Source of the DNA: Halobacteriovorax marinus SJ
GTDB lineage: Bacteria; Bdellovibrionota; Bacteriovoracia; Bacteriovoracales; Bacteriovoracaceae
Assembly: GCF_000210915.2 (NCBI RefSeq)
Contig: NC_016620.1
Span: 372,001-436,000, forward strand
Length of the DNA stretch: 64,000 nucleotides
Direction of reading: 5' to 3'
The notes beneath the pieces are model-generated. The model was not told where the DNA came from. It saw nothing but the letters and a program-made list of their open reading frames with translations, and made no database searches. A program made the position numbers and the translations under genes. Below, one piece after another: positions 3,671 to 39,419 of this stretch (positions are counted from its first letter, which is position 1; each line of letters starts with the position of its first letter).

Positions 3671-4267
3671 ATGTTAGGAGTTATTGAGTATGGAGCTGGG
3701 AATATAAGATCTGTCTTAAATGCTTTAGATTTTCTAGGTATTGAATCCTTAGTTATAAACAATTGCGAAGATTTTGATAAAGCTTCTCACCTGATTTTAC
3801 CTGGAGTAGGTGCTTTTGGGCACGGAATGCATGAATTGCAAAGGCTTGGCTTTGTAAACAAAATTTTAGATCATGTTAATAATAAAAAACCGTTACTTGG
3901 TATATGCCTAGGGATGCAATTACTATTTGAAAAAAGCTATGAACAAGGAGAGTTCGAAGGCTTAGGTATTTTAAAAGGAGAAGTCCTACCATTTTCTAAA
4001 GTAATTGATGATCTTAGAGTTCCACACGTTGGCTGGAACGAATGTAAGCAGTCTAAGGATTCACATTTCAATGTAAATGAGAGTTATTATTTTACTCATA
4101 GTTATTACTGCGCACCCTCTAATCAAGAGGACATCTTGTCATCAACGGAATATGGAGTAGAATTTACTTCATCAGTGTTAAGTGACAATGTCTTAGGCTT
4201 TCAGTTTCATCCTGAGAAAAGTCATCATGATGGCTTAATGTTGTTGAAAAAATTTCTGGAAATGTGA
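3671..4267 (+). CDS. hisH: HisH-like glutamine amidotransferase of the sugar amidation module
   Basis: Class I glutaminase that releases ammonia from glutamine. The nucleophile elbow GICLGMQLLFE carries the catalytic Cys, and the FQFHPEKSHHDG segment supplies His and Glu of the triad; the N-terminal GAGNIRSV loop is typical of HisH. The copy lies inside a pseudaminic acid operon next to a HisF-like protein and an N-acetyl sugar amidotransferase. By analogy with the WbpG/HisH2/HisF2 set of Pseudomonas O-antigen, it should feed ammonia to PseA rather than serve histidine synthesis. It starts 2 bp after pseI, and its TGA overlaps the next ATG (TGATG). Confidence 0.92.
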   Translation: MLGVIEYGAGNIRSVLNALDFLGIESLVINNCEDFDKASHLILPGVGAFGHGMHELQRLGFVNKILDHVNNKKPLLGICLGMQLLFEKSYEQGEFEGLGILKGEVLPFSKVIDDLRVPHVGWNECKQSKDSHFNVNESYYFTHSYYCAPSNQEDILSSTEYGVEFTSSVLSDNVLGFQFHPEKSHHDGLMLLKKFLEM

Positions 4268-36688: not shown

Positions 36689-37453
36689 TTAATCAATCGA
36701 CCTACCGTCCTGTAAATCCTTGAGCTTGGAATATTTTAAAAGAGCAGAAAGAGAGTTTATACAGCAAATAATGAATCCATACCTTCCATCTAGAAAACCT
36801 CTTTTTAGAAAGTAATCTTTTATAAATTTAAGAATTGGTCTTGATACGATTTTAAAGTTACTTGAACGCTTACCTTCTTTAAATGCAGCCTTTGCCGCGA
36901 TCGTTGTAAACTTATTCGTTTGGTTAACATGATCACTGATTGAGTCGTAGCTATAGTGAAGAAGGTCCCCATTTATTCTTTTAATAGTTGATCCATCCTG
37001 CATTTTGATAATGTCATGTGGGTTTGTACCACTCCAAGTACCTTTATTTTTATTAAAGAGTCTTAGCTTCGAGTCAGGGTACCATCCTGAGTGATATACC
37101 CATTTGTCTACATAGTTGGTAAGTCTATTAAAGTAGTAGCCATCTGCCTTGAAATCTTCTTTTACTTTAAGAATTTCAATTTTAAGTTGCTTGTCTAAGG
37201 CCTCATCCGCATCAAGTGACAAAACATGGTCATATTTGGCAGCTTTAAGGGCAAAATTCTTCTGTTCAATATGACCAATAAATTTATTTTGAATCCATCT
37301 AACGTTATGTTTCTGGCAGATTTCCTGCGTTTTATCTGTAGAAAATGAGTCCACCACAACAATCTCATCAACGATTCCCTCAAGTGACTTAAGGCATCGT
37401 TCAATATTATGTTCTTCATTAAATGTAATGATTACTGCGGATAGTTTGATCAT
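36689..37453 (-). CDS. GT2 glycosyltransferase (WaaE/KdtX-like core transferase)
   Basis: A 254-aa GT2 of the lipopolysaccharide-core beta-glucosyltransferase type. It has LSAVIITFNEEHNIERCLKSL, VVVDSFSTDKT, the metal site SLDADEAL, then GWYPDSKLRLFNKN and LLHYSYDS. These motifs define the WaaE-like group that glycosylates LPS core heptose. It is single on the minus strand and divergent from a heptosyltransferase-like GT9, which supports a core role. The ATG lacks a Shine-Dalgarno and has a -10 box 6 bp before it. Confidence 0.87.
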   Translation of the reverse strand: MIKLSAVIITFNEEHNIERCLKSLEGIVDEIVVVDSFSTDKTQEICQKHNVRWIQNKFIGHIEQKNFALKAAKYDHVLSLDADEALDKQLKIEILKVKEDFKADGYYFNRLTNYVDKWVYHSGWYPDSKLRLFNKNKGTWSGTNPHDIIKMQDGSTIKRINGDLLHYSYDSISDHVNQTNKFTTIAAKAAFKEGKRSSNFKIVSRPILKFIKDYFLKRGFLDGRYGFIICCINSLSALLKYSKLKDLQDGRSID

Positions 37454-37459
37454 TTCTCA

Positions 37460-37488
37460 ATCATAGACTGCATTATTCTTTTTGTTAA
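37460..37488 (-). promoter_or_regulatory. Sigma70-type promoter, leaderless geometry (GT2 gene)
   Basis: On the minus strand: -35 TTAACA (37488-37483), 17-bp spacer, -10 TATGAT (37465-37460), then 6 bp to the ATG at 37453. Transcription would begin at the start codon. Its -35 shares the palindrome TGTTAACA with the opposite promoter. Confidence 0.6.
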
Positions 37489-37513
37489 CACATTGTTGCA
37501 ATTTAGATATACT
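37485..37513 (+). promoter_or_regulatory. Sigma70-type promoter, leaderless geometry (GT9 gene)
   Basis: On the plus strand: -35 TTAACA (37485-37490), 17-bp spacer, -10 TATACT (37508-37513), then 6 bp to the ATG at 37520. It is the exact mirror image of the opposite promoter about the centre of TGTTAACA at 37483-37490. Confidence 0.62.
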
Positions 37514-37519
37514 ATTATA

Positions 37520-38539
37520 ATGACATATCGAACAATTCTCGTTGTGAAAAATAGGGCCATGGGAGATTCCATCATGGGCCTATCGACGCTTCAATATATT
37601 CGAAAGCTTTATCCTGAGGCAAAAATTATTTATGCGATACCTTCGTGGATAACCCCGCTTTATAAAAACGTTGAAATTGAGTGTGATGAAGTCATTAATT
37701 GCGACCTTAAGGTAGCAAAGGATTGGGCAGCTCTTCTTGGGCGACTAAGAAAAATTAAGCCTGATGTTATCTTTGAAATGCAGTTGTCCGGTAGGACTTT
37801 TAAATTCTTCAATATATATTCCAAACTCTTTGGTATTCCTTATTATTTTCACGATCATCATTCAAAAAAATCTCCCAATTCATTAAAGGACAGGGGGATC
37901 TTAGATCAAGGTGTGATTAAAGCAGTCATTCAACGAGATTTAGATGGAGCTTATTCTTGTTTAGGTGCTGATGATCAAGTGCCTAATTACTTAAGCTACG
38001 TACCTAAAATCTCTTTTGAAAAGGCACCAAAGAATCGTCTAGTTTTAGGCGTTGTTGCAACAAGGGCCACTAAGATGTGGCCATTAGAGTACTATGTTGA
38101 ATTAGCAAAAATTTGCAGAAGAAATTATCCTAATCTAAGTATCAAAATTCCATTATCTAAATCACTTGGTGATATTGAAATTAAAGAAAGATTAGAAGAA
38201 TTAAACTTTAACGACTACGGTGAGATCGTTCACGTACCGCTGTCTCAGTTACCACGCTTTGTCGGCAACTCTAAGCTTTATGTTGGAAATGATACTGGAC
38301 TTAAACATCTGGCCATTTCTACAGGTGTTAAGTCGTATACTCTCTTTGGGCCAGAACCTCCAAATGAGTGGCATCCATATGATAAAATAACTCATCCCTA
38401 CTTTTATAAAGATCCTCTTGAATGTAGAACTAGAGACGCTCACTACTGTGGACTTTCTAATTGCTCGAGTATGATTTGTCTTAATGAGTTTATGCCAACA
38501 CAGATTTTTGATGAAATTAAAAAGGACCTAGATGACTAA
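37520..38539 (+). CDS. Family 9 glycosyltransferase (heptosyltransferase-like)
   Basis: A 339-aa GT9 enzyme like ADP-heptose:LPS heptosyltransferases. It has ILVVKNRAMGDSIMGLSTLQYI at the N-terminus with the acceptor-side glycine and Asp, LVLGVVATRATKMWPLEYY, and the donor-site VGNDTGLKHLAISTGV followed by FGPEPPNEWHPY. The ATG at 37520 is preferred over the upstream TTG at 37493 because a strong -35/-10 pair ends 6 bp before it. It overlaps the next gene by 8 bp. Probably adds heptose or a related sugar to the core. Confidence 0.88.
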   Translation: MTYRTILVVKNRAMGDSIMGLSTLQYIRKLYPEAKIIYAIPSWITPLYKNVEIECDEVINCDLKVAKDWAALLGRLRKIKPDVIFEMQLSGRTFKFFNIYSKLFGIPYYFHDHHSKKSPNSLKDRGILDQGVIKAVIQRDLDGAYSCLGADDQVPNYLSYVPKISFEKAPKNRLVLGVVATRATKMWPLEYYVELAKICRRNYPNLSIKIPLSKSLGDIEIKERLEELNFNDYGEIVHVPLSQLPRFVGNSKLYVGNDTGLKHLAISTGVKSYTLFGPEPPNEWHPYDKITHPYFYKDPLECRTRDAHYCGLSNCSSMICLNEFMPTQIFDEIKKDLDD

Positions 38540-39419
38540 GTTAATCTCTGGAATAACATTTATAAAAAATGGGCTTACTCTCGGCTATCCAATAAAAGAG
38601 TCTATTGAAAGTATAGACTCACTTTGTGATGAAATAATTATTAATGTTGGTTTCGATAATCCAGAACTCACAGAAGATGATGGAACTTGGGATTATTTAA
38701 CGACTCATTTTAAAGGTGAAAAATATATTTTCCTAAAAAGTTACTGGGATCCTGCCATGACTTCAAAGGGGTTGATTTTATCACAGCAGACTAATATTGC
38801 CCTCGAAAGAGCGAGTGGAAAGTACTGTCAATATATTCAAGGTGATGAATGCCTTCACGAAAATGATTTGGAGACCATTAGAAAAGAAGTTGAGAAGATG
38901 GAATCTGATCATTCTTATAATGGACTTGTGTTTAATTATATTCACTTCTACGGCAATGTTAATGTTCAAAAACAAACAAAGAAAACTTATAGGCGTGAAC
39001 TACGATTGATTCGAAATGGCTTAGGAATAAAATCTTGGCTAGATGCTCAAGGGTTTAGGAATAAGGATGATTCTAAGGTTTTATGTAAGCAGATAAATGC
39101 TACTGTCTATCACTATGGATGGGCTAGAGCAGAGCAAGTGATGCAGGCAAAAACTAGGGCCTTTGAAAAACTATATCACGGTGACAAAAAGAAAGATGAA
39201 AGCTTTAATTATGAGAGAGTCTGGGGACTAAGACCATTCAAGGGGGAGCACCCTAAGGTCATGAATAATTGGATTGAAGCAAATAAGAATGACCTCGACA
39301 TTCTCTCTCTTCCATATAAGTTTAATGTTAAAGATATAAGACTAATGCTTAGTGACCGCTTCGAATATTTAACAGGTATTCGTCTTGGGGAATTTAAAAA
39401 TTTTAAATTAAAGAATTAA
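38532..39419 (+). CDS. GT2-like glycosyltransferase
   Basis: A 295-aa protein that looks like a divergent GT-A enzyme: SGITFIKNGLTLGYPIKESIESI at the N-terminus, ALERASGKYCQYIQGDECLHENDL with a G-D-E in place of the usual D-x-D, and VYHYGWARAEQVMQAK near residue 195. The tail has a YLTGIRLGEFKNFK end. It follows the GT9 gene with overlap, so it likely acts on the same glycan. It may be an enzyme of the family found in Bacteroidetes and Proteobacteria core clusters; the sugar is unknown. Confidence 0.75.
   Translation: MTKLISGITFIKNGLTLGYPIKESIESIDSLCDEIIINVGFDNPELTEDDGTWDYLTTHFKGEKYIFLKSYWDPAMTSKGLILSQQTNIALERASGKYCQYIQGDECLHENDLETIRKEVEKMESDHSYNGLVFNYIHFYGNVNVQKQTKKTYRRELRLIRNGLGIKSWLDAQGFRNKDDSKVLCKQINATVYHYGWARAEQVMQAKTRAFEKLYHGDKKKDESFNYERVWGLRPFKGEHPKVMNNWIEANKNDLDILSLPYKFNVKDIRLMLSDRFEYLTGIRLGEFKNFKLKN

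Follow-up and report, generated by a model that had tools for sequence, protein, structure and literature searches.

Probable back-to-back promoters with a shared palindromic -35 element between two divergent, predicted leaderless glycosyltransferase genes of Halobacteriovorax marinus

In the 64,000-nucleotide stretch of the Halobacteriovorax marinus SJ genome analysed here (NC_016620.1, positions 372,001 to 436,000; "the window"), two divergent glycosyltransferase genes, GT2 and GT9, are separated by 66 bp in which two predicted promoters stand back to back and overlap within a single 8-bp palindrome, TGTTAACA. With a probability of about 0.75, these are σ70-type promoters that share their -35 element, produce leaderless GT2 and GT9 mRNAs, admit one polymerase at a time, and give loosely coupled expression of the two genes.

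According to this proposal, the 66 bp would hold two complete promoters for the housekeeping σ (σ70-type), overlapping in one palindromic -35 word. σ Region 4 would bind TTAACA in either orientation, and the orientation of binding would decide whether the polymerase opens the left or the right -10 element. Transcription would then start ~7 bp past the -10, at the A of each ATG, generating leaderless mRNAs: one for GT2 (minus strand) and one that covers GT9 together with the following gene (plus strand). With one polymerase at the shared -35 at any time, each gene would have to wait its turn for polymerase binding; if the promoters are of moderate strength, the outcome would probably not be a switch but expression of both surface-sugar transferases at comparable, loosely coupled levels.

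The divergent gene pair

GT2 (36689-37453, minus strand, ATG at 37453) encodes a protein of 254 aa that matches PF00535 (E 1.6e-21), and GT9 (37520-38539, plus strand, ATG at 37520) encodes a heptosyltransferase-like protein of 339 aa that matches PF01075 (E 3.7e-14). Both lie inside a stretch rich in glycosyltransferases, in a genome of 3.44 Mb (two contigs, G+C ~36%), and their orthologues within the genus share 74-79% (GT2) and 66-82% (GT9) identity. The description of GT2 as "WaaE-like" in the original prediction could not be confirmed: PF00535 is its only match above cutoff, no NCBIfam equivalog passes, and none of those listed is WaaE; a curated equivalog match to the WaaE/KdtX-type LPS core glucosyltransferases is therefore lacking. 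An open reading frame downstream of GT9 (38532-39419, plus strand) overlaps its end at 38532-38539 and is probably on the same transcript; searches of Pfam and NCBIfam gave no match for its product.

Two predicted promoters meeting at one -35 element

On the minus strand, the GT2 promoter consists of a -35 element TTAACA (37483-37488), a 17-bp spacer, and a -10 element TATGAT (37460-37465), which is followed by a 6-bp discriminator, TGAGAA (37454-37459), and then by the ATG. On the plus strand, the GT9 promoter has the same form: TTAACA (37485-37490), a 17-bp spacer, TATACT (37508-37513), and a 6-bp discriminator, ATTATA (37514-37519), before the ATG. Neither gene is predicted to have a 5' UTR. 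Each promoter matches 10 of the 12 consensus positions. The palindrome TGTTAACA (37483-37490, both strands) contains one TTAACA per strand, and the two -35 boxes overlap within it by 4 bp (TTAA); the -10 boxes are 42 bp apart, and the predicted start sites are 67 bp apart. The boxes, the spacers, and the distances to the ATGs agree to the base with the original prediction. A perfect TATAAT at 37516-37521, which overlaps the GT9 ATG, was considered as a -10 element and rejected; it is kept only in the congener G004.

The center of the palindrome (37486.5) is also the midpoint of the two ATGs, as had been claimed. However, this coincidence is not extra evidence, since it follows arithmetically from the equal spacings (17 and 6) on each side. 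Of the 58 positions that flank the 8-bp palindrome, only 16 are self-complementary, which is about chance; thus, the symmetry is one of element layout, not of sequence, and is largely to be expected where two promoters of optimal spacing are joined at a single -35.

The layout itself is beyond chance. A single promoter of this kind, with the spacing exact, is expected in random DNA of matching composition with P ~1.7e-4, and both together were found in 0 of 400,000 trials. When up to one mismatch is allowed in the 16 specified bases, a search that gave zero control hits, the exact two-sided layout has one match in this genome and is otherwise confined to the orthologous gap of two congeners (G004 and G002). 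A looser pattern without start codons, ANNNTA-17-TGTTAACA-17-TANNNT, also matches one contig of G047 and, in G003, a different contig that was matched by the control as well. In a 464-kb sample of this genome (the 64-kb window plus 20 sampled stretches of 20 kb), GT2/GT9 is the only divergent start pair with leaderless-type promoters on both sides.

Conservation and loss within the genus

The same 66-bp layout is present, gap-free and with unchanged box positions and spacer lengths, at the orthologous gap of G004 (55/66 bp identical to this genome) and G002 (46/66), so that these two species also have divergent promoters whose -35 boxes overlap by 4 bp. The palindrome is identical at 8/8 positions in the three species, and is present in G001 as well. 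Four-fold sites of GT2 and GT9, compared between this genome and G004 or G002, are 0.30-0.44 identical (random, ~0.31); at such near-saturation unselected sequence would not survive, and the intergenic conservation thus reflects selection. Changes in the -10 elements stay within the consensus: the GT2 -10 is TATGAT in this genome and G004 and TATAAT, at the same position, in G002, and all five genus members have either TATACT or TATAAT as the GT9 -10. The discriminators vary freely in sequence. The TGAGAA of GT2 shares 0 of 6 positions with its counterpart in either G004 (AAGTCT) or G002 (AACTCC), with the length fixed at 6; the GT9 discriminator is 6 bp in four species and 7 bp in G003. Nothing resembling a Shine-Dalgarno sequence is conserved in the 6 bp before either ATG in this genome, G004, and G002.

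In the other two congeners, insertions have split the pair. A crcB gene (PF02537) sits between GT2 and GT9 in G001 (L174 1141-1506, G001:C15), and ends adjoining a conserved TTTCTTTTTGTTAACACA block. Here, the GT9 promoter is intact (TTAACA-17-TATAAT-6-ATG), the minus-strand -10 has been lost, and ahead of GT2 stands another promoter of like type, TTAACA-17-TAAGAT-5-ATG. In G003 about 3.3 kb has been inserted (L173 2112-4225, G003:C2), with genes for an AbiEii-type toxin (PF08843), an AbiEi-like partner, and a CopG-type antitoxin; TTAACA-17-TATACT-7-ATG is still in place at GT9, and for GT2 the only candidate -10 is a weak one (TATAGT, at 8 bp). The short distance from -10 to ATG, kept for GT9 on its own and re-made for GT2 in G001, is the strongest sequence evidence for leaderless starts. 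The original prediction had staked itself on the symmetry persisting in close relatives. This holds for two of four congeners and fails for the two with insertions, and among the family members compared outside the genus none was found with the two-sided layout. Having been lost in two congeners and not being found beyond the genus, the layout is therefore not essential, and the shared -35, to judge from the split pairs of G001 and G003, is dispensable.

Does sharing of the -35 element matter?

Geometry suggests that two σ Region 4 domains could not both fit the 8-bp palindrome, and binding of polymerase to the two promoters would therefore be exclusive. It is plausible, if unproven, that this exclusion affects expression. 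At five E. coli bidirectional promoters, basal activity is too low for competition, which appears once one side has been activated (PMC12825309). Since the effect on output thus depends on promoter strength, loosely coupled co-expression, not a switch, is expected here.

The two promoters could be real and yet share a -35 by evolutionary accident, with two standard leaderless promoters simply abutting and an exclusion that carries no regulatory meaning. The chances of this are about evenly balanced. Such an accident is compatible with the core of the preferred explanation, differing from it only on whether the sharing matters. Each promoter has the standard leaderless form of this genome, in which case the symmetry about the midpoint becomes arithmetical; insertion has removed the layout from two of the five genus members, and it was not found outside the genus, where the pair is still divergent. 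GT9 also retains its promoter in G001 after separation. Against an accident stands the TG half of the palindrome, which is needed by the minus promoter only and is nevertheless unchanged across three species whose neutral sites have diverged almost to saturation, although G001 keeps this TG half even though the minus partner has been lost.

The conserved sequence also extends beyond the -35 boxes. A 25-bp block, TTCTTTTTGTTAACACATTGTTGCA (37476-37500), is invariant in this genome, G004, and G002, and is more conserved than the -10 spacers. It holds a direct repeat with 11-bp spacing, TTGTTAA/TTGTTGC, and G001 keeps its right part as TTGTTAACACAATGTTACA. Many response regulators bind direct repeats of this kind, and the block may be an additional, putative regulator-binding site. 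That its main role is as the operator of a transcription factor controlling both GT2 and GT9 is more doubtful. Its width relative to the -35 boxes, its conservation relative to the -10 spacers, and the persistence of TTGTTAACACAATGTTACA in G001 all fit an operator. However, no second copy (with up to 2 mismatches) occurs elsewhere in this genome, G001, G002, or G004, and no regulon is therefore visible; G003 is without the block at GT9, and the sole second-copy match is a 2-mismatch site in that same species. The block could instead be UP-element and spacer sequence. We consider an operator as its main role unlikely.

It is quite improbable that the palindromic shared -35 is a selected device, in which the polymerase is forced to alternate between two leaderless genes and so keeps two enzymes that act on the same surface polysaccharide in a fixed, low-noise ratio.

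Comparison with known divergent promoters

The prokaryotic bidirectional promoters described by Warman et al. (2026, PMC12825309), and before that by the same group, likewise consist of pseudo-symmetric DNA, produce divergent mRNAs, and have two mutually excluding orientations of polymerase. They share a common -10 and have starts 10, 18, or 23 bp apart, whereas here the -35 is common and the predicted starts are 67 bp apart; the GT2/GT9 gap has no shared -10, and in the sense of Warman/Grainger is not a bidirectional promoter. At the Pc and Pr promoters of plasmid pLS20 (PMC4207663), elements of divergent promoters also coincide and one polymerase binds at a time. There, however, the proposed overlap is between the -10 of one promoter and the -35 of its partner, rather than between two -35s, and the promoters are of unequal strength and are switched by RcoLS20; no regulator is known for GT2/GT9. 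A limited literature search turned up no earlier description of a palindromic -35 shared by two leaderless genes. Thus, each ingredient is already known and the combination is unusual. The 66 bp offer a clean natural setting for testing polymerase competition free of 5' UTR effects.

Predicted leaderless transcription

Both genes carry the marks of a leaderless gene: a TANNNT -10 element that ends 5-7 bp (in each case exactly 6 bp) before the start codon, and no Shine-Dalgarno sequence. Given the 7-bp optimum between the -10 and the start site (PMC12825309), both transcripts are predicted to begin at the A of the ATG.

The 464-kb sample indicates that this arrangement is not peculiar to the pair. 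TATAAT-like hexamers end exactly 6 bp before the starts of 15 first-in-operon genes, versus ~4 at other distances, and operon-internal genes have none at 6 bp and no peak; these counts are rough, as they come from a home-made gene caller that misplaced the start of GT9. Counted without a gene caller, 17 pairs of -35 and -10 elements lie 6 bp before the ATG of open reading frames of at least 100 aa, versus typically ~3 elsewhere, with GT2 and GT9 themselves being two of the 17. ATGs of short open reading frames in the same sample have no such peak. AGGA, GGAG, or GAGG is present ahead of 37% of first genes, versus 9% in the control interval. The 6-bp peaks thus point to a leaderless class in this genome, which exists alongside genes with Shine-Dalgarno sequences. 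Over the whole genome, TTGACA-17-TATAAT-6-ATG with up to 3 mismatches is dominated by chance and uninformative (209 sites versus 200 in the control); among the matches listed, TTGACA-17-TATAAT sites with up to 2 mismatches number 14 at 6 bp and 5 at 15 bp.

The leaderless starts foreseen in the original prediction are supported by the genome-wide 6-bp excess, by the conservation of boxes and lengths around 6 bp that vary freely, and by the lack of a conserved Shine-Dalgarno sequence; leaderless, or near-leaderless, transcription of GT2 and GT9 from overlapping promoters is well supported at the level of sequence. It is very improbable that GT9 is instead leadered or starts upstream, at one of the in-frame TTG codons at 37493 and 37496, with the -10-like hexamers by the start codons arising by chance in AT-rich DNA: the frame is open from 37493 and at the matching place in G004, G002, and G001 (which has an ATG at the corresponding position), but the extension is unconserved in sequence, has no Shine-Dalgarno sequence, and is shortened in G003, and the conservation of the boxes and the genome-wide 6-bp peak would be left unexplained.

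Among 33 delta-proteobacterial genomes, 8 are predicted to have leaderless genes, marked by a TANNNT ~12 bp ahead of the start codon (Zheng 2011, PMC3160421). Like GT2 and GT9, such TA-led genes, which are also described in Deinococcus-Thermus (PMC12340547), have a -10 within a few bp of the ATG, lack a Shine-Dalgarno sequence, and show a positional peak across the genome. Here, by contrast, both members of a divergent pair are of this type, with good -35 boxes that overlap each other. For Halobacteriovorax itself, no map of transcription starts was found in the literature; that of attack-phase Bdellovibrio describes mainly FliA-type promoters, and leaderless starts go unmentioned in its text. 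A leaderless class in this genus would bear on start-codon annotation in these marine predatory bacteria, and annotated starts may deserve re-checking.

Many family members outside the genus also have GT2 and GT9 in divergent orientation, separated by 14-77 bp. A -10-like box lies 5-7 bp before the ATG of some of these GT9 genes (L089, L090, L095, L097, and L099), a small count that is only suggestive. In Bacteriovorax sp. UBA1852 (L098, ~3971-3988), just 14 bp separates the two start codons, and each promoter must therefore lie largely inside the opposite gene.
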